A stretch of DNA of 64,000 nt from Jaminaea rosea (lineage: Eukaryota; Basidiomycota; Exobasidiomycetes; Microstromatales): positions 1,054,001 through 1,118,000 of the forward strand of contig NW_020289977.1 of the NCBI RefSeq assembly GCF_003144245.1. The letters run 5' to 3'. Of this stretch, positions 1 to 64,000 are shown one piece after another. Made by a program: the position numbers and the translations under genes. How positions within the stretch are numbered: position 1 is the first letter of the stretch; every line of letters begins with the position of its first letter. The notes under the pieces are model-generated. The model saw only the letters and a program-made list of their open reading frames with translations, did no database searches and had not been told where the DNA came from.

Positions 1-2841
1 CCTCCTTCGTCCTTCATGCGCCGCGAAGCCCAAGCCGGCGATGACCACTAGCAAAGTCAGATCCCCAAGCCCCAGACTCGTAGTCTTGAATACCCCCTGC
101 AGTGGTGGGAAGTACACAAGCAGCAGCTGACTGACCAAGCTGACGCTTACAGTAAGAGTAAGCATTCTGTTCCCCGTGAGGGTGGTGGTAAGCCCACGAT
201 TCTGCACAGCGGAAGTGAGGTCGAGGAAGACGAAGGCGGTGAAAGTCATAGTCTGATCGCGTTCGTCCGCGAAGCCGTCGTCCGTAAGCTCCGCGACGTA
301 GATGTAGAGCGTGCCGAGGACGATGATTGTCGCCGAGAACAGCACGCGCATCAACACCCTGCGTGTGAGTACGGGCGCATCCTTTCTCCTCGGCCTGCGA
401 CGCATCACCACCGCCCTGTCCACTGGATCCACTCCGAGCGATTGTGATGGAGGCCCATCCATTAGAATGTTGATGAAGAGGATCTGCATAGGGTTCAAGG
501 GAAGCTTGAGCCCCGCCGCCGTTGACAGAGTGATGAGACTCAGTGCCGCCACTGCCGTTGAGAGCTGGAATGCTAGGAAGTTCTGAATGTTGTAGAAGAT
601 GCCCTTGCCCTCTTCTACTGCTGGAAGGATTGTGGCAAAGTTGTCGTCTACGAGGATGACGTCGCTTGCCTCTTTGGCCACGTCACTGCCCCCGCGGCCG
701 AGGGCAATGCCGATGTCTGCTAGCTTGAGGGCAGGCGCATCATTGACTCCGTCTCCTGTCATGGCGACTACGTGCCCGTTCGACTGGAGAGCGCGGACGA
801 TGCTCATCTTGTGGCGCGGGGTGGTGCGAGCGAAGACGGAGACACGGTCGATGCTCTCTTGGAGCTGGCGCTCTGACATCGAGTCAATCTGCGAGCCAAG
901 CATGGATGCACCTCCGTCAATGCCTACTTGACGCGCTATAGCGTTTGCGGTGGGCTCGGCGTCGCCTGTGATCATGATGATCTGGATACCGGAGCGACGA
1001 AGCTCTGCTATTGATTCTCTGACGCCCTGGCGAGGAGGATCTTGTACGGCTTGCAATCCACAGAAGGTGGTACCTACGGCGCAGGCCAGAACACGTAGCC
1101 CTCGCTTGGCCATCTCATCTGCTGCACGGCGAATCTCAGCAGTTTGAGCATGAGGCGCTCGTTCTAAGACGGCCTCAACTGCTCCCTTTGTGTAAGTCGT
1201 GCTGCCTTGCCCAATGTTGGCTGCTGAAGGCGGGACGGTCAGGGTACCAGTGACTGACATCCACTTTGTCTCTGAGCTGAAGGGCATTTCGGCCGTCCGT
1301 GTAAAAGAGCCGCGCGCATCGTGCCTTACCACGCTGGCCATTGCTACGTCTGTTGCTTGGCCCACGTATTCGCCCTTCTCATCTCGACGCGCGTTGTTGC
1401 AGAGATTGCCAACGAGGAGTGTACGAGCGAGGGAAGGCGAGGGGGAGTCGGGCAGCTCCTTGGCATCGATCTTGCCGTCCTCTAGTGTCCAGAGCTCGCA
1501 GACGGTCATCTTGTTCGTCGTCAAGGTGCCCGTCTTGTCCGAGCAGATGACGGAGATGGAGCCTAGTGTCTCAACTGAAGGCAGTCGTTTGACAATGGCC
1601 TTGCGATGCGACATGCGCAGCACGCCCAGCGCCAGAGTGACGGTGACAACGATGGGCAAGCCCTCAGGAATGGCCGCAACAGCGAGAGATACGCCGATGG
1701 TAAACATCTCCAGCGCACCTCTCCTTTGCCAAAGACCCAGCAAGCAAATGACGCCGATGATGGCAAAACTAGCCATGCTGAGCTTCTTTGCCAGGTCGTC
1801 CATGCTCAGCTGCAGCGGCGTACGTTGCTCGACCACCTCGTCCACCATGGCGAAGATGGCGCCAAATTCTGTCTGTGGACCTGTAGCAACTACGACACCT
1901 CGTCCGGAACCTGACTTGACCAGTGTTCCCATGAAAGCCGTATTGTCGCGTTCAGAGATGGAGGTCGAGGGTCCAAGGGCGTCTGTCGTTTTGCGTCTGG
2001 GCTTGATCTCTCCCGTTAGAGGGCTCTCGTCCGTCTCGAGCTGGACGGACTCGATGATGCGGACGTCGGCGGGTACTCGATCACCTGTTGAAAAGGTTAC
2101 GATGTCTCCCGGCACCAGCTCGTTGGCTAAGACGTGAGATGTGACGCCGTCTCGGACGAGGTGGCAGTAATGTGGTACAAGCTTGCTGAGGGCTGCTAAT
2201 GACTCTGAGGATCTTTGCTCTTGAATGTGAGCCACTGCGTATGACCAGGCAGAAGGAAGTTAGCAACGACGATTGAAAAGTGCGTTCAAACGCTTATTGG
2301 CGCTCACCTGCTACGACGATTGCGACGGCAAGGACAATCGACACAGCGTCTCCCACCTCGCCCAGCAACAGACTGACCACAGCGCTACCGAGCAGCAGGA
2401 GGATAAGCGGCTCCTTGAGCTGGTCTATGAGCTTGGATAGAGCGCTCGGAGGCTCGCTAGCTGCGAATTCGTTGTACCCTCTTACTGCTTGACCATGAGC
2501 AATCGTTGTCCAGGGCAACCCATTTCGAATGAGGGAAACCGAGGCGGATGGCAGTCCGACTTGCGGGTCTATGGGAGATGCTTGCGATGGTGAGAGCTGA
2601 GTCAATGTAGAAGCGATGTCGAGATGAGCATAGAGGACTGATGGGGAGGGCGACTTTTGGGCTTGCGGAGGATAATCGGCTGCTTGCGAGCCTGCGTGGG
2701 CGGGAGATGGGTAGTGGTCATGACGACAGTGAGCTCACGTGCATCTGGTCACTCGGTGCACGTCTGCTTATCCTCACCCTTTCTGAGCTGAGTCGAGAAG
2801 GTGAACTCCTCTTCGGCCTCAGCATCATCATCGTCGCGCAT
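1..2841 (-). CDS. PMR1: P-type Ca2+/Mn2+-transporting ATPase, PMR1/SPCA type (3' end outside window)
   Basis: Golgi P2A-type pump that moves Ca2+ and Mn2+ from cytosol into the secretory pathway, supporting glycosylation and protein sorting. I read three exons on the minus strand: 2841-2778, 2691-2308 and 2234 to the window edge, with introns of 86 and 73 nt. Frame and phase agree across both junctions. An acidic N-terminus leads into a cation-ATPase N domain (SVLYAHLDIAS) and the first membrane pair. Family motifs lie in frame: PEGLP of M4 near 1660-1680, the phosphorylation motif DKTGTLTTNK at about 1510-1539 (Asp382, close to the position in yeast Pmr1) and TGDGVNDAP near 738-770. The frame reaches position 1 in a hydrophobic segment (LTLLVVIAGLGF) that fits the last membrane helix, so few residues are missing. 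SPCA rather than SERCA is inferred from the length (about 893 residues visible) and the N-terminal pattern. Confidence 0.93.
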
Positions 2842-23698: not shown

Positions 23699-26600
23699 TC
23701 AATCGAATGCGCTCAACAGCCAGAGCTCCAAATCTAAGAATCCTTTCCCGGGCACCTTGACCAGCACCTTCCTCTGTACGCCGCCACTCTGCCCAAAAGA
23801 AGTGGAAGCGCGATGCAGCTCCAACAGCTTACACATAGCTGCTGGCCCGCCACCAAACGAGTAGCGACACCTCACCTCCTTGCCCGGCCCAGTCTCCGTC
23901 TTCACTCCCCGTGGGAGATGCTCGTCCAACCGGGTGAGAGGCACGCCCAGGGCATTGGTGACCGTACTGACGGCCACGTCCAGCGCATCATTGGGATTTG
24001 GCCTGTACGCGGCCGCGTTGGGCGCAATGGCGGAGAAGGATGAATGGCCGGAGCGCTCAGAGAAGGTCGGGGTTGCAGCGCCGTCCCTCACGCTCCCCGC
24101 GGGCGTCATTCCTGATGCACTACGCGGTACGCCTGAGAGACGGTTGCTTGCAGTGCGGGCTGTTCGATAGTTGGCAACCGAGGACGAGACTCCGCCTCCC
24201 ACCGATTGGGCGTAGATGCTGCGGGTGGATGTGGCGCCAGAGTCGCCGCTGGCACCTAGGACGCTGAGTGGGCGAGCATGGGGGATCTTCGCAAGGGCAG
24301 ACGCGCTCAATGGCGTTGTACGGCCAGTGCCAGTGCTCGTGCTGCTGTACCTGCTGCCACTGGTCGACGAGGAGAGGATGCTCGACGCGGGAGAGCGAGG
24401 ATTGGAGCGCGTGGTTGGTGGTCTACTCGCAACGGACGACGCCCCAGCAGGCATAGCGGACACTCTGCGGCCAGCCGCCGAAGTCGATGCAGCCCCCGTC
24501 GACGGCTTCGAGTACACACTCAAGCGCTGCACCCTCGCCGCCATTATGGGTTCAGGGGTCTGCATAGTCGATCGACTCGCGCCACCAAATCTCCGCGGCG
24601 TGCCCATTCCAGCGGCGCTGGAAGCTTGCGAAAGCGAAGATCCTGGTCGGTCGTACACCTCGCTACCCCCAGCAGACGAAGGGAATGAGAAAGTCGGGAT
24701 ACGACTCTGCCTCCTTGCTGCTTTGAGGTCTGGATCGACGTGCGTCGTAGCAGACGAAGGCGGGCGATAGTGCGCGGGAGTGTAGTTGCCTGAAGCTGAG
24801 CCCGGCCGGCTTCTGGCCATGGAGAGGGTCTCCATCGATTCATCGCCGATGCCGTTGCTTTCGTAGCTACCGCCGCCAGCGCTAGCGCCGCCCAGGACGC
24901 GCGACGCCCGTTTCTCTGCGAGTGGCGATGCTCCAAGCGCTGAGGCTGGCCGAGTGTATCGAGCTTCTTGCGCAGCCACAGGCGGCTCGGAGCCTGCTCT
25001 GAGCGTGCGAGGAGGGACGCCGCGTTGCGGTGTGATGCGGGTACTGCTGCTACTGCCGGCACTGATGGTGCTGTCCATCGAGTTGAGCGGGGTAAGCCCT
25101 TCATCTTTCGACCTGAAGCGGAAGCTCGAAGGAGGGCGAGAGGTGAGGGTGTGCGAGACCCGCTTGGCTGGCGAGGCTTGCGAGTCCGGCAGAACAGAGT
25201 TCCTACTCAATGGACTGGAACGAAAAGAGGGGTCTGTCGTGCCCGCTGTCTGCCTGAGCACGCCGGGGCTGCGCTCTGCTGATCGCAGCAATCTTGGCTC
25301 GGGCGAGACGCTGGCTGATGCTGAGCGATTGTGGCGACTTGGCGGGGTTTGAGCTGGTCTTAAATTGAGCAGAGAAGAGGCAGAGGGACTTGAAGTCATC
25401 CCGCTGCGCATGGGCGATCCCGTTGTTGGTGGCGTACCCGCTGCGGCTGCCGCCGATACCAGTCGGCGTGTGCTCTTGAGCGGCTTAGGTGGCGCTGGAG
25501 GGGACAGAGGCGGAGTCGCGTTGGGACCCAAAGCTGGCGTACGCATCCTGCTCTTTGAGGGGAGCCCAGGCGTGAGCCTGCTTTGCGCTGAGGAGCTGAC
25601 CCCAGACTTGGCCGGCGTAGAAGGAGACGACAGCTGCGGGCTCGACTGTGAGACCACCAAGCCTCCATCTGCGCCGCCTCTCCCAATCATGGCTGTCTCT
25701 ATCCTCTTGAGCTCTCGATCCATCCTGGAGCTCTTCTGTCGCAGCATTGACCATCTCGTCTTGAGCTCGGCAAACTTGCGCAATAGCATGCCGTGGCTCG
25801 TGGCGCGTTCTTTGAGACTGCGCTCGAAGGCGGCGAATGTCTGCTCGATGGCAGGGTAGTAGTAGTTGCGCTTCGTCTTGAGCGTCTTCTTGACGGCATC
25901 TAGACGTTGCACGATCTCGTGTGACTCCTCGTCATCACGGCCGCCTTTTGCACTGCGATGGTCCTCGACGAACTTGGCTGCCAATGCAACCGCCTTCTCC
26001 AGGCTGTCCATCAGGCCCTCTGCCTGAGTGCTGGCCGAGTTGAAATGGCTCATGTACTTGTCATCGCGCAGCTCCTTCTTGAATGTCTCGACCTCGTCTT
26101 GTACAGCGTCCCAGTTGCGGGCCAGTGCTTGGTACTGCTGCTTGTGGCTACGTTGACCAAGTGTCACGCCCGGCAGAGCGAAGTCATCGTCATCATCGCT
26201 GTCGCTGCCAATGCCGCCCTCTGAGTCATGATGGCTGATGACCGTCGTATCACCTGTGGCCTCCTCGTCGGCGCGCACGGCTACCTGTAGCTGCTGCACG
26301 ATACGGGAGATGGTCTCGAGCTGGTCGTCGATGCGAATGACTGCCAACTGCATTTCATCATTCGTGGGCTGCTGGCTGCTATGCCTCTTCTCCTCGAGCT
26401 CGAAGAGCGTGCTGCGGACGCTCGTAATCTCTGAAGTTGCTGTGGCAATCTCATGCGCAAGGTCGATGCCATGCTGCGTCCCGCCGAGAGGCGAAGGGCT
26501 GCGACGAGGTGACCGAGAAGGCCCGGGCTTAGTGTCCTCGGTCAGGCTCAGATTTTGGATGGAATCAGCGAGGTCTGCTGTTGAGGCAGCGAGTGGAAGG

Positions 26601-26842
26601 CCGTCTGCTGTAGCTGATCCTTCCGGAAAGTATGACGATGCTCTATTGGGGGTCATGGAGGCAACGGGGCTCGAGGCGATGGCGATGGGGCTGGTTGGAG
26701 AGGAAGAGGAGAGGTCGCTGAGGCCTGCGGATGTTGACCTAGGTGAGTGGGGATATCGTAACAGTTAGCCGACGAGGGGCACGAAGCTGAGAGTGCACTC
26801 AAGGACTTACCTGGGCAGTCGCTTTGATGGAGTCAACGACAT
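23699..26842 (-). CDS. Microtubule-associated protein with Kar9-like N-terminus, SxIP motif and GAR domain
   Basis: Two exons on the minus strand, 26842-26811 and 26738-23699 (intron 72 nt, phase 2), giving 1,023 residues. The short first exon encodes MSLTPSKRLP. The N-terminal third is mainly helical and charged (for example LARNWDAVQDEVETFKKELR and RNYYYPAIEQTFAAFERSLK), in the manner of Kar9-family spectrin-like helices. The middle is Ser/Pro/Arg-rich and basic, suited to microtubule binding, and contains SRIP at residues 689-692 (24695-24706), an SxIP motif of the kind that binds EB1/Bim1. The last 75 residues form a GAR (Gas2-related) domain: PGKEVRCRYSFGG and KVLVKVPGKGFLDLELWLL. A role in spindle orientation or microtubule-actin linkage follows from Kar9 and GAR family knowledge. 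GAR is firm; Kar9 homology is tentative. Confidence 0.78.
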
Positions 26843-42893: not shown

Positions 42894-43831
42894 TGCTGCG
42901 ATAGGATGGAATGATGGCACGGTGAGAGCGCGGAAGAATGAGCGGAAGCACTCGACGGCGTCCGTGGGGGTGGAGGCGGCGGCGAACGCAGGCGGTCAGG
43001 GCCACGACCGCCGGCATCGTGTCGCATGGGAGTGTTGGGAACAAGACGCGGTGCTGAGGAGTGTTCAGAGGGGTAGTAAACCATCGCGGCACCCAAGGGT
43101 TTTGATGAGGCAATGATCCTCACACGTCTCATCGCTGCGGGTCTCTGGCGCTCTCAGTCGGGAATGATGCCGCGCTTTGCGAGACGGAAGATGGTTTACG
43201 CAGGCCTGCGGAAGCCCGCAGGCTTGTCGCCTTCTCACCAGGTCAAGGCGCTGATCACGTCTGGCTTGCTGTTGTCGTCGTCGTCGTCATCGTCGCCGAG
43301 CGCATCGTCGTCGTCGAAAAATGAATGAAAAGAGGTCGCGGCGACACAGTGGCCCTCGATGGTCCGGGCTCTGCGGGCTCTGCAGGCTCTGCGATAACTA
43401 GTCTCAACGTGGATGTGGCAGCGGAGTTTGATTCAGCGCGGGGTGGCACCCCGAATGCAATCGCGAGGGAGAGCAGCAGCTCGTTGCAACCCTCATCGGC
43501 TCGCTCAAGGTTGCTGCTCTCCATAACACGTCTTGTCTCCTAGACATCCCGCGGAGACAGACGTTCTCGTCCTCATCGCCATCCCACCATCAACACCGCC
43601 ACTGCGATCAGATCCTTGTCGGCATTGGACGGCGGCACGGCTGGCTCAATCTATCTCGCGCCTGAGACGCCGAGGTCAAAGCGCTCCGCTGTCCCGCCTC
43701 TGCCTCCGCGGTCCCTCAAGCCTCCTCACCTTTCAGCTGGCCTGTGTAGAGAGCCTCCATTTCTCTCATCTGGCCACACACGGCCACCGGATCATCGAGC
43801 TCGCACAGCTCGTCGCACCAGACCTTTTAAC
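42894..43831. promoter_or_regulatory. Divergent intergenic region, HAD gene and Rho GEF gene
   Basis: About 940 bp between divergent start codons. It includes a CGT/TCG-rich tract at about 43269-43318. Short open frames on both strands across that tract are Ser- or Thr-rich by virtue of the repeat and are not called. The frame of the Rho GEF is open upstream to 43616 but without an ATG. Confidence 0.4.
43269..43318. repeat. Imperfect (CGT)n/(TCG)n tract
   Basis: Trinucleotide tract of GTC/CGT units interrupted by CAT and GCC units, in the intergenic region upstream of the Rho GEF gene. Confidence 0.8.
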
Positions 43832-46800
43832 ATGGCCGGCGACTCAGCAGTAGCAGTATCAGCATCAGCAGCAGATGAGACGGCAACATCAAACGCACAG
43901 CCTCCTGCACCACCGCCGCCGCCGCTAGTGCGCAATGCTTCCTTCCTCTCCGAGGAGCCATCATCATCATCGTCTGCCTCGTCCGTCGTCAGCAGCTCTC
44001 GCGCACGTAGACCATCATCATCCTCGACAGCAACTGTGGGCAGTCGTCGCAGACCATCTCGTACACAGCTAGGCGACCCTCCTTCCTCTCCAGGCGGGTC
44101 ACCCAGGCCGTCATCACGCAAGACGATCCTTCGCGGTACTCTACAGGCCACCGTCCAAGATCGAGATCGGGAGGCGACAATTAGCAGTCGTTCTGACTCT
44201 CAAGAGTCAGGCACATCGTCCTTCTTCGAGTCAGAAGGTGCTCAGCGTAGTCGGTCCGGTTCAGGTCGGCCGCTAGCAGAGGCATCGTCTCCGAGATCAC
44301 CGATGACAGCATTGTGGGAGGCCAACAACGCTCATGGCTCGCCCGTCACGTGGACGTCCTCACGACGTCCTTCAGCTGCGAGCAGTGGTGGGGCGAGCAG
44401 AGGATCGGGCAGGAGGAGAGGTAGCAACGCAGCAGGTGCGAGTAGCAGCGCGGCTGAGGACGACGGCGAGAATCCTCCACCACCACCGATCCCAACCAAA
44501 CAGCTAGGTCGAGATCGCATGGCATCGGCCTCTTCATCCACATCGTCGCTAACGAGGCGGCGTGCAGCTGACCTCGAAGCTGCAAGCACGGATAGCTCCA
44601 ATGGCTTCTTGATGGCGCCTCCGCCTACTATGATGGGCAGAATGCGCTCAAAAACGTCTCGCGAGAACGTATCAGAGGCAGTCGATCGGCATCCGAGGGC
44701 GTCAGAGCCCGTCCCATCGTCGAGTACGTTGGGCAAGCTCTTTGGCGGGCTGAGAAAGTCGAAGAATACTCCGCGGGACGACAGTACGCCGAGCGGCGGC
44801 GATGGCGACGGCCCTGATTTTGCTGCCGCTGCCGCCGATGCTTCATCTCGACCCGGTCTTGCGACGGCCGGAGGCGTTGATGAAGCGCGGACGATGTCGT
44901 CGTCGGGACCACCTCGGATGCCAGATTACCAACCACCGCCTCCGCCGACGGCTAATCTTCAATCACTCCTCTCACTTCCATCTCACCCCTACGCCAACAG
45001 TCGCCTCCCACCCACCTCTAGCCAAGGTCAAGGCAGGGCTGAGCTGAAGCAAGAGGCCTACTCCGAAGCGCCACGAGCAGATGGAATGCCAGGCGCGGAT
45101 CTTGACTGGACCACGACGACGCCTACGCCCACCAACGCTTCCTTTGCCGTCACAGGCCCCTCGCAATCACCTGCCGGTTCACCCCACGCTGCTTCACCTT
45201 CGGTTGCAGCTGAGCCTCCATCTCCATCACAGTCATCTTCGCCGCCGACAATGAAGCGAGCAGGCAGCTGGCCGCCTCGCGGCGACAAAAAGCCAGGCAG
45301 CTTCGTAACGCTCCAGAATGGCCAATCACGCGGCGTCGGCGGCTCTCGTTTTCAAAATGCGGCAAGTCGACCCCCGCGTACTCCGAGCCCCAACACCATT
45401 GCAATGGCCCAGAGCTCAGAATCTGCTCCCCTTCCTCAACCGTTCACCATGTCGATATCCAACTCTGCATCTTCTGACATGACATCGACGACCGCAGGGA
45501 CCAGCACCTCAGGGGCAGCCCAGACGTACGATGCGGCAACCTTGCCCGCTCTTGAGCAGGATGACGGCGTTCAGCCTCAGTCGCCTGCGTCAATCGCTGC
45601 TAGAGAGGAGCGTTGCAGAATAAGGCGAGAACGCAAATCGCTCAGAAGCAGACCGCAGAGCGGGCAAAGCAGCTCGTCATGGCACATACCGCTTCCTCGG
45701 AGCAGCAGTCTGCGCTCTTACGACGGCGAGACAGGGCCATTCCCTACTCCACCCCCTCGCTCCAGCTCATCAGGCATGCAAGAGTTTGACTTTAGCGGCA
45801 GCTACGGGGCTGGCGAAGCATCTACTAGCCCAAGGCAGATGCTGAGCGTCGACCAACCTTCCCCTTTGCCGTCTCCAAGGTCACTACCACGAGCGGCTCC
45901 GGCGTCACCTCGAGCGGCACCATACGGAGTAGGAGGCGGAAGCGTTGCCAAGCTGGCGTCGAAGTTCGGAGGTACGACCAGACAGCAGATGCCTCGAGGA
46001 TCGCCAGAAGCCAAGCAGAGCGCGTCTAGCTACTTTGAGCGGCTCACACGCTACCGTAGCTCCTCGAATGCATCAAACACCAGCAGGAGGCCTCCAAGTG
46101 GCCTGGGCGAGTCACTGTCATCTGCAGAAGTCGCAGCCTGGGTCACCACCGCCAATGGTCAGCGAACAGCATCGACCTCGGTCTCCACTGCCTCGTCAGA
46201 CGTTGCATTGCGAGAGCGTGCCCCATCAACCGTTTCCGTCTACGAGGATGCACCTCAAACGCTGGCCAACACATCAAAGGACCGAGTACTGTCCTCCATC
46301 GAAGACGATGCCGACGCCGACCCAACGTCTGAATCAGTCGCAACAGAATCCTCTCACCCGCCGGTCATGTCCAGTGACTCGGCAGCTTCTGCCATCAGCA
46401 ACCCTCCGAATCGACCCACGAAAAGCTCGCGACGACCAGGGACGGCGCAGACGCTGGAGAATGTTGAGCGGTGCAACTCGTCTCGACCCTCTTCGTCCGC
46501 CATCCCAGCTCAAGGTTCGTCCATCAACGAGGAAGGCTCGCACGGAGTTTCAGCTGCGCCTGCAGGCCCGTCGACCTCGCCCTCAGCGCTCGGTGTAAGT
46601 CCTCTGAGGAATAGCGTCGAGATGGCTGCGAGGATGGGCGGGACGTTTGACATGTCGCAGCAGCATGCCAAAGCTGGTGGAGCAAACGGACTCGCTGAGC
46701 CGCTTGTCTTGTCAAATAGCCGCAATCGCAGCGAGTCAGAGGGCAGCGCGCTCAAGGAGGAGCATGGCGGAGATGAGGCGGATGAACACGGTGAGGAAGA

Positions 46801-49800
46801 GGACGAGGATGGCGATGAGATTGGGCATGATGTCGGAGACGGCGAGGACGCGACTGCTCGACTCGAGGTGCCGTCCACGCCTGGCCGTCGAAGAGCTTCG
46901 CTTGCCACCAGAGCCAAGAATCTGCGCAAAGTCACGCCTCCTGCGTTGGCGAGCGCTTTTCGACAGCGAAAAGCTTCGGCTCCTGGTGAGGGCACGCTGA
47001 AGGGGAAGAAGTGGCCATTTGGCGGAACAAAGGATGATGGTTCGGAGGGCGAAGAGGACTCAAAGCAGCAGCAGGCTCGGTTAGGACGGGCGAGCGTGCG
47101 CAAGAAGAAGGATGCCACGCCAGCAAGACCGACAATTAGGAGAATCTACGACGACCAGACGGGCTCTCCCCTCTCCCCTGCGCGCGAGCATCTCTCCCTC
47201 CTTGCGCAGAAGCCATCCATCGCGTCATTCCAGAGCGCGACTTCTTCGTCGCAAGACGTTGCAAGCATTGACCGAGGCAGCGATCTCAACTCGCCCGTCG
47301 TACCCTCTCCTGTCATGGGAGGCCGTGTTAGGACGCCACCAACCGCATGGACCAAGGGTGAGCTCGACGAAGACATGAAGCGTATCCTCAAGCGCCGCAA
47401 CGTCATCCGCGAGCTCGTCCACACTGAGCGAAGCTACGCATCAGACCTCACGGTCATTCGCGACATCTATTTGTCCCGCGCTCGGGCACGGGTCGGAGCA
47501 TGGCCGTCGGCATCGCCCGGCACGCCTTGGTCAGGCTTCAGCGCTACTGGCTCGCCTCTACACCATCCAGCTTCCGCCACGTCGTCGAGCAGCTACCTGC
47601 CATACCGAAATGCGGCTGCCTCTCGCAGCTACTTCCGCAGCGCATCAGGCGAGGTCGCTCTGAGCGCCTACCAGGGCACAACGCCCTCGCCGGGTCTGCA
47701 TCGAAAGGCTTCATCGCCTGCTATGGCTACGCCGCCCATGCACTTTGATACTAAGCTGCACCCGCTGCCTTCTCCTGCTCCCTCTGGCTCGATCAGCAAT
47801 CGCTCATCCGTTGTCACGTCTGGCTCCAAGTCGAAGGACGAGTCAGTCAGCTCAGACGCGACGAGGTCGAGCTCCAGACCTACCGATGCTTCCAAGAGCG
47901 GAGGCGAGGAGAGGACTTCTGTGAGCACGAGGTACAGCGAGAGCGGCACGACGCCAGGAGTACCAGCAACGCCACCGATGCCGACCATTACCACCTCGAC
48001 TTCGACGACCTCCACATTCCAGGATGCACACGGCCACATGAGCTCCCTCATCTCTCAAGGCGCTGCAAGCAGGACCAGCGGCGGCGGCACAGGCGGCATC
48101 ATTGGCGGCGATGGCACTCCTCCGGCCGGCGGGAGACCAGCAGTCACCATCGACACTCGCTCCTCAGCCTCAACGCCAGCTGGCGCTCTCAGCAGCAACA
48201 GCAGCGATGCCCCTCTGAGCCATTCTGACATCCGCGTCATCTTCACGGGCGTCGAAGCCTGCACAGCCTTCGCAGACGAGATGACTTGTCTCCTTGAGGC
48301 ATCGATGGGTACTCTCGCCGCCAACTCTCTGCCGTCCGAAGCAGCAGACCTCGAAGACAGCAACGATGATACCATCGGTTTGGCCTTCCGGCAGCTGGCC
48401 TCCCGTATCCAAGCAGTGTACGGCGCGTACTGCTCGAAGCATGAGGCCTCCATCACCCGCCTGCGGGACGTGGCTTCCACCTCTTCGCGAGCAGCGCAGT
48501 TTTTAAAGGAATGCACGGCCGTTGCGCGACGCAGGACGAATGCGTGGGACCTGGCCTCGCTCCTGATCAAGCCCGTGCAGCGCATGCTGAAGTATCCGCT
48601 GCTGCTCAAGCAGATCCTCGCGGCCACACCTAGTACGCATCCGGACTACGAGAATCTCGTGATGGCGATTGAAGAGATCCAACGCGTGGCGGACTCGATC
48701 AATGAGCTGAACAGGAGGCGCGAGATCATCACGCAGATCATTGGTGGCGGAAAAGCGAGGGACGTCGCTGGAAACGGAGGTGCTTTGGGTAGTGCGAGCA
48801 GCCCAGGAGTCGAAGGCAGCAGCGGTGCGCAGACACCAGGTGGCATGACCAGAAGCCTCACGCGCAACAAGCTCAATGCGTCCAAGACGCTTCGCCGCAA
48901 CAAGGCTTCAGGCTCGACGCCGACGGTTGCGACAGACCTGGCTGCAGTGGGCACCAACGTGCTAGAGTCGCCCGACTTGCCGCGGCTACTTGCCTCCTTC
49001 AACTCGCTGCAAGGAGGCATTGATCGCCTGGCTACTGAGTACAGTCGCTGGCCCACTCTCCTCAGGGCTTCAATCCTCAGCCAACTCGACCTCCTCGCCG
49101 CATGGAAGAACGTCTATGTGACTGAGACGGAGCACCTTACTGCTTTCGGCGCCCTCTGTCAGGAGATGCTCGAGGGACCACTCCCCAAGCTAGATCGTGC
49201 CGTTCAACTCACCCTTCTGCCACCATTGGAGAAGGTGCGCGGCATCTTCTCTGGCCCACGGGAAGTGCTCATGCGCAGGGAGGAAAGAGAAGAGGACTAC
49301 ATCCGATATCGCACCTTGCTACTTGCCAAGGGGGAGCAGGGCATGAGAGCCACGTCGTTGGACAAGGAGCATCGTCGTCTTGTCGAGTCTGCCAATGGCT
49401 TTGCGGCGCTGCACCTTCACCTGGTCGATGAGCTGCCGGAGTTCCTTCACGGGGTGGAGTGCATGGTAGATCTGCTCATTGCAGCATTTGCGCGCATCCA
49501 AGCAGAGTACCTCGGGAGCGTCAAGACGCTAATGGGCGGTTTCCTCGAGGCACGAGGCGACAACAGCACCAGTGTACCGCCCGTCACTACGCCCTCGGGC
49601 GAAGCGGCCTCGACCGCCAGCCACGGCTCGAACGGCACGGTCGCCTCCTCGCGCGAGAAGACGGCGAATATCGTCCGGACGTGGTGGACTGCCCACCAGG
49701 TGTGGGCTACCCAGCTCGAGGGGCTCAAGGTCTGCCAGCCAAACGGCGAGACAGGTCGCAGGCCCTCCGCGTCGCCGTCGCTGGAGCGATCTCCCTTGCC

Positions 49801-50515
49801 AAGCGACATGAACAAGGCAGCCTCCTCCTACTCCCTCGACAAGCGCAGCGGTGGGGTCGGCGGACTCGCTGGAGCTGTGATGACCGGCTCTCCCGCCAAC
49901 TCGCAACGCTCTTTGCCACGAGTCAGCGATGGGGGCAGCAGTCAGCCTGGCGCTTCACACCACTCCAACGATGCGCATCCCCCGCCAGCCATGCCTCCCT
50001 CGACCTCCTCCGGCTCCGTCAACCACGAGATGGGTTCGACTACTTCTTCTTCTTACCTCGCGCCGCACCCGCAGCAGGTCCCTACACCCGGTCGACGAAG
50101 CCTCAATAGCTCTCAGGGAAGTGGAGGGTCTCGCAGGCCCAGTGGCAGTCCCAGTGGCGGTGGCACGCTCGACGTGGCTGCTATGCCTGCCTCCGCTTCC
50201 AACAACCCATCCCCCGCAGGCAGCAGAAAGGGAAGCATCTTCCGGTCCCTCTCAGGTACGATCCGCGGCGTCGGGTCCAGCTCTACTCACTCAGACACGG
50301 ATACCCCTCCAAGACCGGAGTCGCCATTGCCTCCTGTCCCACCGCTTCCAGGCAAGGTGGCAGGAAACGGTAGCCCGGCTGTCCCGCCGAAGGATCATGG
50401 TGGAAGCTTGGCTCCGATGCTGCCCTCGCTTGATCTTGGCGAAGGAGATTGGAGTCCAGAGGTGACAGCGAAGGGACTCGAGCCGATGGGAGGTGGGCCT
50501 GCAGATGGACGCTGA
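43832..50515 (+). CDS. Rho/Cdc42 guanine nucleotide exchange factor with DH and BAR domains (Gef1/Tuba-like)
   Basis: Single exon of 2,227 residues. The first 1,180 residues are Ser/Pro/Arg-rich and disordered, with Pro-rich SH3-ligand-like strings. The DH (Dbl homology) domain begins near residue 1186 (ILKRRNVIRELVHTERSYAS), is interrupted by a low-complexity insert of about 240 residues (47490-48215), and resumes with HSDIRVIFTGVEACTAF through LLIKPVQRMLKYPLLLKQIL, the most conserved DH helix, ending near residue 1640. A BAR domain follows at about 1709-1900 (LASFNSLQGGIDRLATEYSR, EEREEDYIRYRTLLLAKGEQ, FARIQAEYLGSVKTLM). The tail is Ser/Pro-rich with PLPPVPPLPGK. DH followed by BAR without PH is the layout of fission yeast Gef1 and animal Tuba, which activate Cdc42 in polarity and septation. 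The Cdc42 specificity is inferred. Confidence 0.9.
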   Translation: MAGDSAVAVSASAADETATSNAQPPAPPPPPLVRNASFLSEEPSSSSSASSVVSSSRARRPSSSSTATVGSRRRPSRTQLGDPPSSPGGSPRPSSRKTILRGTLQATVQDRDREATISSRSDSQESGTSSFFESEGAQRSRSGSGRPLAEASSPRSPMTALWEANNAHGSPVTWTSSRRPSAASSGGASRGSGRRRGSNAAGASSSAAEDDGENPPPPPIPTKQLGRDRMASASSSTSSLTRRRAADLEAASTDSSNGFLMAPPPTMMGRMRSKTSRENVSEAVDRHPRASEPVPSSSTLGKLFGGLRKSKNTPRDDSTPSGGDGDGPDFAAAAADASSRPGLATAGGVDEARTMSSSGPPRMPDYQPPPPPTANLQSLLSLPSHPYANSRLPPTSSQGQGRAELKQEAYSEAPRADGMPGADLDWTTTTPTPTNASFAVTGPSQSPAGSPHAASPSVAAEPPSPSQSSSPPTMKRAGSWPPRGDKKPGSFVTLQNGQSRGVGGSRFQNAASRPPRTPSPNTIAMAQSSESAPLPQPFTMSISNSASSDMTSTTAGTSTSGAAQTYDAATLPALEQDDGVQPQSPASIAAREERCRIRRERKSLRSRPQSGQSSSSWHIPLPRSSSLRSYDGETGPFPTPPPRSSSSGMQEFDFSGSYGAGEASTSPRQMLSVDQPSPLPSPRSLPRAAPASPRAAPYGVGGGSVAKLASKFGGTTRQQMPRGSPEAKQSASSYFERLTRYRSSSNASNTSRRPPSGLGESLSSAEVAAWVTTANGQRTASTSVSTASSDVALRERAPSTVSVYEDAPQTLANTSKDRVLSSIEDDADADPTSESVATESSHPPVMSSDSAASAISNPPNRPTKSSRRPGTAQTLENVERCNSSRPSSSAIPAQGSSINEEGSHGVSAAPAGPSTSPSALGVSPLRNSVEMAARMGGTFDMSQQHAKAGGANGLAEPLVLSNSRNRSESEGSALKEEHGGDEADEHGEEEDEDGDEIGHDVGDGEDATARLEVPSTPGRRRASLATRAKNLRKVTPPALASAFRQRKASAPGEGTLKGKKWPFGGTKDDGSEGEEDSKQQQARLGRASVRKKKDATPARPTIRRIYDDQTGSPLSPAREHLSLLAQKPSIASFQSATSSSQDVASIDRGSDLNSPVVPSPVMGGRVRTPPTAWTKGELDEDMKRILKRRNVIRELVHTERSYASDLTVIRDIYLSRARARVGAWPSASPGTPWSGFSATGSPLHHPASATSSSSYLPYRNAAASRSYFRSASGEVALSAYQGTTPSPGLHRKASSPAMATPPMHFDTKLHPLPSPAPSGSISNRSSVVTSGSKSKDESVSSDATRSSSRPTDASKSGGEERTSVSTRYSESGTTPGVPATPPMPTITTSTSTTSTFQDAHGHMSSLISQGAASRTSGGGTGGIIGGDGTPPAGGRPAVTIDTRSSASTPAGALSSNSSDAPLSHSDIRVIFTGVEACTAFADEMTCLLEASMGTLAANSLPSEAADLEDSNDDTIGLAFRQLASRIQAVYGAYCSKHEASITRLRDVASTSSRAAQFLKECTAVARRRTNAWDLASLLIKPVQRMLKYPLLLKQILAATPSTHPDYENLVMAIEEIQRVADSINELNRRREIITQIIGGGKARDVAGNGGALGSASSPGVEGSSGAQTPGGMTRSLTRNKLNASKTLRRNKASGSTPTVATDLAAVGTNVLESPDLPRLLASFNSLQGGIDRLATEYSRWPTLLRASILSQLDLLAAWKNVYVTETEHLTAFGALCQEMLEGPLPKLDRAVQLTLLPPLEKVRGIFSGPREVLMRREEREEDYIRYRTLLLAKGEQGMRATSLDKEHRRLVESANGFAALHLHLVDELPEFLHGVECMVDLLIAAFARIQAEYLGSVKTLMGGFLEARGDNSTSVPPVTTPSGEAASTASHGSNGTVASSREKTANIVRTWWTAHQVWATQLEGLKVCQPNGETGRRPSASPSLERSPLPSDMNKAASSYSLDKRSGGVGGLAGAVMTGSPANSQRSLPRVSDGGSSQPGASHHSNDAHPPPAMPPSTSSGSVNHEMGSTTSSSYLAPHPQQVPTPGRRSLNSSQGSGGSRRPSGSPSGGGTLDVAAMPASASNNPSPAGSRKGSIFRSLSGTIRGVGSSSTHSDTDTPPRPESPLPPVPPLPGKVAGNGSPAVPPKDHGGSLAPMLPSLDLGEGDWSPEVTAKGLEPMGGGPADGR

Positions 50516-59949: not shown

Positions 59950-61901
59950 ATGTCCCCTACCGCTTCGTCGTCGTCTGCCACGGCCGACAATGGCCTCGTC
60001 CACTCGTCATCTTCCAAGGCCCTCTATGATCCCAAGAATGCAATCGCAGCCCTCAGTGACTACCCCTCGGGAGACGGTCTCGCCATGTCCGAGCTCATCG
60101 ACTCAAAGCTCCACGGAGGTCTCACGTACAACGACTTCCTCGTCCTTCCTGGCTTCATCAACTTCCCTGCCAACGAGGTCAGCCTCCAGACCAAGGTGAC
60201 GCGCAACGTCGTCCTCAATACCCCCTTCCTCTCCTCGCCCATGGACACGGTCACTGAGACAGAAATGGCTATTACTATGGGCCTGCACGGCGGCATGGGC
60301 GTCATCCACAACAATATGTCGCCACAGGAGCAAGCGAACATGGTCCGCAAGGTCAAGAAGTACGAGAACGGATTCATCACCGAGCCGATGTGCCTCTCGC
60401 CCAACGAGACCGTGGGCGACGTGCTCGACATCAAGCAGCGCATGGGCTTCGGCGGTATCCCCATCACTGGTGAGTAGGCGACATCTGCGACCAGGACCCG
60501 CTCTTTGCTCTCGCCCACTCGCGCTGCTTCTTGGTGATGAAAACCCATTTTTGCTGTTAACCTTCGTTCTGCTGAGGCCCTCTCTTAGACTTGAGAGCGG
60601 CAATGCAGACCACAACCTATGTCCACTGATCGAGAAGCAGCGCGGGCGCGAGCGAGGCTAGCGGAGTAATTGCAGCACAGAGAGCTGACTATCGATGCCT
60701 CTCGCCCTCGCAATCAGACAACGGAGCTCTTCATGGCAAGCTCCTCGGTATCGTCACCGCCCGCGACGTGCAGTTCCGTGACCCCGCTCTCCCCCTGTCT
60801 CAAGTCATGACCACCGACCTCGTCACGGCAAAGAAGGGCGTCACGCTCGAACAGGCCAACGAGATCCTTCGCGACTCCAAGAAGGGCAAGCTCCCCATCG
60901 TTGACGCAGAGGGCAACCTCGTCTCCCTCCTTGCTCGCTCTGACTTGCTCAAGAATCAAAACTACCCGCTAGCATCCAAGCGCCCCGACTCCAAGCAGCT
61001 TTACTGTGCCGCAGCTGTCGGCACCCGCCCTTCGGACCGCGAGCGCCTTGCCCTCCTCGTTGACGCCGGGTTGGACGTCGTCGTCATCGACTCGAGCAAC
61101 GGTAACTCGACATACCAGATTGAGTTCATCCAGTGGATCAAGCAAACCTACCCCCAGATCGACATCATCGCTGGCAATGTCGTCACGCGCGAGCAAGCCG
61201 CCAACCTGATCGCGGCAGGCGCCGACGCTCTGCGCATCGGTATGGGCTCGGGTTCCATCTGCACAACGCAAGAGGTCATGGCCTGCGGCCGACCCCAAGG
61301 AACAGCAGTGCACCGCGTGGCTGAGTTCGCGGCCAAGTTCGGCGTCCCCGTCATTGCCGACGGCGGTATCTCCAACGTGGGCCACATCGCCAAGGCCATG
61401 TCCCTTGGCGCATCTGCGGTCATGATGGGCTCGATGCTTGCTGGTTGCGAGGAGGCGCCAGGAACCTACTTCTTCCGTGAGGGCAAGCGTCTCAAGGCTT
61501 ACCGCGGGATGGGCTCCATCGAGGCTATGACGCACCAGCGCAAGCAGGCCATGCCTGGTGCCACTGGGCGCGGGGCCGCGAAGGCGAACAAAGCTGTTCC
61601 CGTCGACGTGGGCCAAGAGAACGCGGCAACGCAGCGCTACTTCTCTGAGGCGGACGCAGTCAAGGTCGCCCAGGGTGTGTCGGGCGCCGTTGCGGACAAG
61701 GGGTCCTTGAAACGCTACCTGCCCTACCTGTTTACGGGTCTGCAACATTCGATGCAGGACATGGGTGTGAAGAGCTTGACGGAGCTGCGCGAGCTGGTCG
61801 GCTTGGGCAAGGTGCGCTTTGAGCTGAGGACTGCTAGTGCGCAGGTCGAGGGAGGCATCAATGGGTTGGCTTACTTCAACAAGCAGCTCTTCTCTGACTG
61901 A
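59950..61901 (+). CDS. IMD: Inosine-5'-monophosphate dehydrogenase
   Basis: NAD+-dependent oxidation of IMP to XMP, the rate-limiting step from IMP to GMP and the target of mycophenolic acid. Two exons, 59950-60469 and 60718-61901, with a 248-nt intron in phase 1, the longest I found in the window; 567 residues. The N-terminus has [20 protein letters not shown] and SSPMDTVTE, then [16 protein letters not shown]. The CBS (Bateman) pair spans about residues 130-270, with the intron inside it ([20 protein letters not shown]). The catalytic loop [13 protein letters not shown] carries Cys355. [15 protein letters not shown] and [10 protein letters not shown] follow, and the flap region is present ([19 protein letters not shown]). 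It ends FNKQLFSD. It converges on the first of the secreted cysteine-rich genes. Confidence 0.97.
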
Positions 61902-62094: not shown

Positions 62095-62753
62095 CTAGGG
62101 ACACCAAGTGTCTGTCAGGCGGGCGGCGAAGTCCGGTCAGCGAGGGCGTAGCAGACCGCGACATGGTGCGTGCGTGCTGACAGTAAGGTCCCTTCTGCAG
62201 TTCACAGCGCAAGGAGAGTGAAGCAGGGTCAGCCACGCTGCTCAATACTGGTGAATTCACCTTCTGCTCACTGTGATGCACTGAGAGACATACTCGACAG
62301 CCTGACACGTGAAGCACCTGTAGGCCGCGAGCAGGGTGACGATCAGACGTGGCATGCTCCTTGCACTCGATGACAGCCGCAGTACTCACTTTGCCGATGT
62401 ATGGCAGACGCGTCCGAGGTCAATTTCGGCCTTGAAAGAGTCGCACGCTGTTTTCACGATGTAGATGATGCTGCTATAGTTGCCGCTGATGGGGGTAGGC
62501 TTCCGTGAACATCCACTGAAAAGTGGATCCGGGATCTCAAACGTCAGCTCAGGTCCCTGACGTGGCCAAGGTCATCCACACCGACGTACGTGTCCTCAAA
62601 GCAGGTACCTACGGGCGAGAGGCTGCTGGTCAAAGATCGGCTCAACAGACGCGAGCGAGCATACTTACCAACTTGGTCGAATTGCCCCGTGACTGCCGTC
62701 AAGCACAGAACCGTGGCAGCAGCAAAGGATAGCATGCACTTCAGAGCAAGCAT
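62095..62753 (-). CDS. Small secreted cysteine-rich protein, copy A of a tandem pair
   Basis: Six exons on the minus strand: 62753-62669, 62608-62590 (19 nt), 62515-62390, 62317-62272, 62194-62182 (13 nt) and 62111-62095. Phases agree (1, 2, 2, 0, 1) and the protein is 101 residues. A signal peptide (MLALKCMLSFAAATVLCLTA) is followed by a mature part of about 75-80 residues with eight Cys (GTCFEDTGC, KTACDSFKAE, GRVCHTSAKCFTCQAVE, VSQCITKGPYYTWCP). The family is unknown to me. The model rests on comparison with the neighbouring copy, which gives the same exon lengths and the same C-terminus. Reading through the fifth donor (GTCAGC, a weak site) would instead give a longer, non-conserved tail to 62087. 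Secretion is predicted; a role as effector, antimicrobial or wall protein is only inference. It is not a hydrophobin, since Cys-Cys doublets are missing. Confidence 0.75.
62182..62194 (-). other. 13-nt microexon of copy A
   Basis: Codes KGPY plus the first base of the next Tyr codon. The equivalent in copy B is 63426-63438. In both genes it is joined to a last coding exon of 17 nt that ends in TAG. Confidence 0.65.
62590..62608 (-). other. 19-nt microexon of copy A
   Basis: Flanked by TAG acceptor and GTACGT donor. It supplies TCFED plus parts of the flanking Gly and Thr codons. The equivalent in copy B (63842-63860) has the same length, the same borders and the same reading phase. Confidence 0.75.
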
Positions 62754-63341
62754 GATGCAGGTGGATGATGCGATGAGTCAAAAAAGCTAGGTTGAGATGG
62801 TAAAGGAGATACGAACGGGAGACAAATGCTGTGAGCGGCGATCGCGACGGCAAGAGCGATGAGGTCAGCCTCGGCACCATATTCATCCATGTGAAGTAAT
62901 GTACATTGGCTGCTATGGCTCTTGTCTTGCGCCCCGGCTGTCTTGAGCACTGCCGACCATGTCTGCTGTCTCATTGTGTGTTTGCAATGTACCTGACGGC
63001 AGCGACGGTGAGGGCATGTCTTCACGGCGTCTTAAGGCGAAAGAGGACTCGCCGAGGGCAATAGGTGTGCATCTTCGTTCTGTGCGTCGAGCAGGCAGGA
63101 AACTCGAGAGCTGAGCAATATTATTCAGCGGCCGCAGTCGGGGCGAGAAAGTTCGATACAAAAGAGAGAAATCTCCCTACAAGAAGCGCAGGTGACAGCG
63201 AAGGCGACGGCAGCGGTAGCGCTGGGGCGAAAGAGAGGCTTCAGCACGGGCGGGCGAGGTCGAGCGAGCTGCCGCCGCAGCTAGGTTCATCAAGGTGCGC
63301 GTCGCCTGGAGAGCTGAGGCCAATCACAGTCAGGCCTTTAT
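62754..63341. promoter_or_regulatory. Spacer between the two secreted cysteine-rich genes
   Basis: About 590 bp, expected to hold the promoter of copy A and the 3' end of copy B. No gene or clear motif seen. Confidence 0.4.
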
Positions 63342-64000
63342 CTAAGGGCACCAGGTGTCTGCGGTGCGAGCGGGAAGCAGTGTCAGCGAGAGACTCAAAA
63401 GAGACCGTGACGCGGCGTGTCTTACAATATGGTCCCTTCTGAGGATGGTGATGGGTAGGGTTTTGACAGGTGTGAGCTATGGCAAGTCGCGAATGAAATC
63501 GCTCAGCATGCTTCTCACCAGAATGCACTGCGAAGCCCTCTCGACAGCCTGGCATTCGAAGCACCTGCCGACCAAGGCAAGGTAAAGGATTTGGAGGCAT
63601 CAGTGACTCGCCTGACTTGCACTTACCGCTCGCCCACTCACTTGGCAGCCGTCTTGCAAACTTTGCCAATGGCGAAGTCTGCCTTGAAGGATTCACAACG
63701 GGCTTGGATGTAGACGATGCCCGAGATATCACCGTTAACGGGAATGGGCTGTTTGAGGCAGCCGCTAGTGTGACCAATTGGTGAGGGGCGGTCAGGGGTC
63801 AGCCTTGAAGCGTACCACGATGTCACGAGACAGAGACGTACGTGTCGCCGAAACAGGTACCTGAGAGCGGAAGTCGAGATATGTCAGGATCTTTCCTTGC
63901 TGCGAAAGCGGCGATAACTCACCGATCTGTTGGACCACACCGCCGACAGACTTCCAAAGGATCGCCAACGTGACGAGGAGGTTGAAGACGCGATTGAAAG
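63342..64000 (-). CDS. Small secreted cysteine-rich protein, copy B of a tandem pair (5' end outside window)
   Basis: Six-exon structure parallel to copy A, on the minus strand: first exon from beyond 64000 to 63923, then 63860-63842 (19 nt), 63764-63642, 63564-63519, 63438-63426 (13 nt) and 63358-63342. The start codon is not in the window; the visible part of exon 1 ends a hydrophobic signal-peptide-like stretch (VFNLLVTLAILW). The mature part has the same eight Cys: GTCFGDTGC, QARCESFKAD, GKVCKTAAKCFECQAVE, ASQCILKGPYYTWCP. The last nine residues are identical to copy A although they come from two tiny exons, which strongly supports the model. Here the fifth donor is a good GTAAG. About half of the mature residues match copy A by eye. 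Confidence 0.75.

Follow-up and report, generated by a model that had tools for sequence, protein, structure and literature searches.

Cce1 of Ustilago maydis, a protein of 129 aa whose gene has one intron and which is conserved among smuts, resembles the gene family described here in being small and secreted, in coming from the same subphylum, and in having eight cysteines, no known domain, and a spacing of five between its first two cysteines (PMC6638113, in its available portion). Its later spacings of 17, 10, 14, 12, 1, and 6, as given in the same portion of that paper, are not those of our family, in which the medians are 20 (second to third cysteine), 12 (third to fourth), 7.5 (sixth to seventh), and 10 (seventh to eighth), with a short fifth-to-sixth interval; the first spacing alone agrees. 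Mig1-related smut effectors are comparable, by description alone, in being lineage expanded, secreted, and clustered or scattered; U. maydis has 3, S. reilianum 8, and U. hordei 19, the last set spread over at least 11 chromosomes (PMC4081819, accessible part). Hydrophobins are likewise small and secreted and carry eight cysteines. CyrA comes from Duddingtonia flagrans, a fungus of another phylum. By its description in the part of PMC8568293 at hand, CyrA is also small and secreted and has eight cysteines, but it is 155 aa long. The family that we report belongs to Jaminaea rosea (Microstromatales, Exobasidiomycetes, Ustilaginomycotina). A literature search found no description of this eight-cysteine family, which is itself new and unnamed; its kind, that of secreted effector-like cysteine-rich proteins, is known.

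The window that we analysed, a stretch of 64,000 nucleotides, occupies C3:1054001-1118000 of a genome of 16.6 Mb in 21 contigs. Splicing by script confirmed that the two adjacent minus-strand genes proposed in the earlier note are real and correctly placed: G2 (62095..62753) encodes a precursor of 101 aa and G1 (63342..64007) one of 100 aa, each in six exons (Table 1), the start codon of G1 (64007..64005) lying 7 bases outside the window. Exon lengths of 85/19/123/46/13/17 nt in G1 and 85/19/126/46/13/17 nt in G2 are accompanied by identical intron phases (1,2,2,0,1), and all 10 introns, of 60-80 nt, are GT..AG. The proteins are 52% identical, and each has a signal-peptide-like hydrophobic N terminus, which the earlier note had read as a signal peptide, followed by the eight matching cysteines and all of the surrounding motifs that it had listed; G2 has 2 further cysteines within the hydrophobic N terminus.

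Table 1. Exons of the genes G1 and G2 in window coordinates
Feature	Position	Strand	Basis
G2 exon 1: start codon, signal-peptide-like segment	62669..62753	-	splicing; hydropathy
G2 exon 2 (19 nt): first cysteine	62590..62608	-	splicing
G2 exon 3: second to fourth cysteines	62390..62515	-	splicing
G2 exon 4: fifth to seventh cysteines	62272..62317	-	splicing
G2 exon 5: 13-nt microexon	62182..62194	-	splicing
G2 exon 6: last cysteine and stop	62095..62111	-	splicing
G1 exon 1, in-window part (exon reaches 64007; start codon outside)	63923..64000	-	splicing
G1 exon 2 (19 nt)	63842..63860	-	splicing
G1 exon 3	63642..63764	-	splicing
G1 exon 4	63519..63564	-	splicing
G1 exon 5: 13-nt microexon	63426..63438	-	splicing
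G1 exon 6 and stop	63342..63358	-	splicing

The tandem arrangement described in the earlier note was thus borne out, but its extent was undershot, since the pair sits within a family of at least 41 loci, located by six-frame searches on 10 of the 21 contigs. With G1 and other members as queries, protein searches of the genome returned many diverged copies. A profile built from 21 members and applied to 1704 open frames from the retrieved stretches identified 41 frames with an E value of ≤1e-3, which represent 40 distinct loci (there was one duplicate record); a long protein at C8:435754-438306, found by the genome protein search (E=1.1e-5), brought the number to 41. Twenty of these loci had played no part in training the profile, and 21 had. 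In each of 5 control rounds, residue-shuffled frames gave 0/1704 at E≤0.05, compared with 47/1704 for the real frames, some of which had trained the profile. The figure of 41 is a lower bound because the genome search scores the best candidates only. Several weaker loci (C14:135-138k, C16:119k, C19:347.7k, and C8:434.9k) are probable members, of uncertain standing because they are unspliced exon fragments. Another family locus lies within 5 kb of 36 of the 41 loci and within 25 kb of 38.

Relatedness follows this clustering: for 21 of 33 members the nearest relative lies within 25 kb, whereas 2000 label permutations gave 2.6 such members on average and never more than 10. G1 and G2 are mutually closest (0.58 outside the shared cysteines), and next to them stands a gene at C16:104728-105401 (0.38 and 0.39), the third multi-exon member, which has four of five intron positions in common with the pair and the same 19-, 13-, and 17-nt exons. 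The remaining sequences, 30 of 33, each come from one open frame and were not spliced by hand; an in-frame Met start is present in 21 of these, and the other 9 must have an upstream exon or begin elsewhere. The single-frame copies may have lost their introns, through retroposition or in another way; alternatively, introns may have been gained in the G1 type. A locus near C12:463k, next to the intact C12:462.2k, appears by eye to be broken, its frame being shifted by a short duplication within it.

G1 and G2 are old duplicates under protein-level constraint, because synonymous sites are saturated (pS 0.82) and pN in the mature part is 0.24 (75 codons after residue 25); their five introns are 42-69% identical. 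Diversifying selection received no support, since pN was below pS in 8 of 8 family pairs, at a synonymous divergence near saturation, and the absence of such a signal counts against the effector-like interpretation developed below.

When 33 sequences are aligned, cysteine occupies the eight columns C1-C8 in 30, 33, 31, 31, 23, 32, 33, and 31 of them, the fifth being low partly because G1, G2, and the C12 group have this residue displaced, and the first spacing is five in all 30 sequences that have both cysteines. Several members of the cluster on C1 have an extra cysteine pair and two members at C3:1391k have 10 cysteines, the C20 pair has seven and is without the third, and C3:1368k has eight but none in columns 4 and 6; the fourth cysteine is missing from C1:1865.4k and the eighth from C1:1863.5k and C1:1968.4k. 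Such departures in some copies count against an effector-like scaffold. A signal-peptide-like N terminus, with a 12-residue hydropathy peak of ≥1.6, is present in 29 of the 33 sequences, and 2 of the 4 sequences without it had been entered as the domain only. The eight-cysteine domain also forms the C terminus of the 851-residue frame at C8:435754-438306, the middle of which consists of long repeats rich in Pro/Thr/Lys/Asp/Glu; this frame has a hydrophobic N-terminal stretch and a GKR site, presumably Kex2-like, and an upstream exon is likely because no Met precedes the hydrophobic stretch. Its position at the end of a repeat-rich frame indicates that the domain can function as a module of its own.

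Known domains were ruled out by searches of Pfam and of PDB sequence profiles. Among 25 sequences (13 + 12), none matched Pfam-A above the curated cut-offs, in line with the earlier note, which had recognised no domain; the best E value, 0.014, was that of one member with an unrelated family, Auts2. The PDB sequence profiles gave nothing better than E 0.31 (0.73 in a second search), and two AlphaFold2 runs with four family sequences yielded models too poor for a fold (mean pLDDT of 39.5 and 48.3). Hydrophobins, which have the pattern C-CC-C-C-CC-C (PMC8596622, available text), had been excluded in the earlier note, and rightly so: G1 and G2 are without a cysteine doublet, the pattern occurs neither in them nor in the 33-sequence alignment, and Pfam gave no hydrophobin match.

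Three protein searches, with 2292, 756, and 23 candidates, led to five proteins. The annotated J. rosea protein BDZ90DRAFT_261861 is identical to the member at C12:480k, three metagenomic proteins are 94-98% identical to family members, and a metagenomic fragment, P0005, is a near-identical G2 exon 1 read through the first intron, with four of the first 29 residues differing by eye. Near-identical metagenomic copies, also compared by eye, keep all eight cysteine columns of the C6:5k and C3:1391k members. The protein searches returned no annotated counterpart of G1 or G2, although a badly modelled gene of another length would escape them, as could distant relatives, because shared five-residue words and a similar length were required.

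We put at about one in two the probability that the family comprises lineage-expanded, disulfide-scaffolded extracellular interaction proteins, effector-like in character, of a phylloplane fungus, J. rosea being named among such fungi in the available part of PMC7766764. A signal peptide would export each protein from the cell, and eight cysteines would form about four disulfide bonds and so a stable scaffold; as the loops between the cysteines vary, different copies could bind different extracellular targets, which on the leaf surface may belong to competing microbes, to the plant (apoplast or cuticle), or to both. Local duplication would supply new copies, which would diverge and sometimes break. 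Copy number and clustering count in favour of this interpretation, as do the matching exon structures and constrained mature part of G1 and G2, the kept cysteine columns with their constant first spacing, the hydrophobic N termini, the modular occurrence of the domain, and the habitat; against it count the poor structure models, the single-frame copies that have no in-frame Met start, and a literature search that returned nothing giving J. rosea a specific host. For G1 and G2, the earlier note's label of candidate effector is plausible, and because the habitat is the phylloplane, action directed at microbes is as possible as action directed at plants. A more elaborate and rather unlikely account would make the family the private arsenal of a supposedly harmless leaf fungus, about 40 proteins on one scaffold used mainly against other microbes, in which a multi-intron ancestor of the G1/G2/C16 type gave rise to mostly uninterrupted, dispersed, and locally re-duplicated copies, part of them overlooked by annotation because of the microexons.

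The small cysteine-stabilised scaffold and its many diverged copies would also suit secreted antimicrobial or killer-type proteins active against leaf microbes, whose diversity would mirror that of competitors and which would involve no host plant; the phylloplane habitat (PMC7766764, same part) accords with this, as do microbe-directed fungal effectors, already a described kind to judge by the listed entries PMC9438471 and PMC7870139. We regard this as a doubtful alternative, because net charge of the mature domains is not uniformly cationic (median, +2; range, -3 to +7; ≥+4 in 5 of 33 and ≤-2 in 9 of 33) and there is no Pfam resemblance to antimicrobial families. The presence of one domain on a long, repeat-rich, stalk-like protein, together with the capacity of small cysteine-rich proteins for surface activity (PMC8596622, same text), could point instead to the fungus's own wall or surface, with roles in adhesion, surface wetting, or wall cross-linking. 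The other members are short and without a stalk, and the absence of the hydrophobin pattern also speaks against such a role, which we judge unlikely. Structural wall proteins rarely come in some 40 strongly diverged copies, a further point against it. Small rigid multicysteine scaffolds with variable loops are a common design among inhibitors, and to that extent the proteins could be disulfide-rich inhibitors whose targets are extracellular proteases or other enzymes, but this is very improbable given that sequence searches of Pfam and PDB matched no inhibitor family.

Should the preferred interpretation, that of effector-like extracellular interaction proteins, prove true, a leaf-surface fungus would possess an effector-like gene family matching those of smut pathogens in size, and whether nonpathogenic Ustilaginomycotina keep or invent such arsenals would become a directly testable question. 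Exons as short as 13 and 17 nt may also cause gene prediction to miss small secreted proteins.

The suggestion in the earlier note that the cluster may pass position 64000 failed: over the 6.9 kb that follow the window, the family profile detected 0 further copies, and the nearest frames there are genes with Ribosomal_L10 and Ribosomal_L4 domains; an extension of the array in that direction was ruled out. On the other side, the in-window upstream flank of the pair holds an IMP dehydrogenase gene at 60630..61901 (+; best PDB match, 4af0). The best of the 1631 window frames that precede 62000 reached E=0.04, and this frame, at 1305..1547 (E 0.04-0.07), was rejected as a chance frame on the strand opposite a P-type ATPase. 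Elsewhere in the window, a RhoGEF domain lies in an open frame of 2323 residues at 43544..50512 (+), and a frame at 23702..26764 (-) has a KAR9 domain match.
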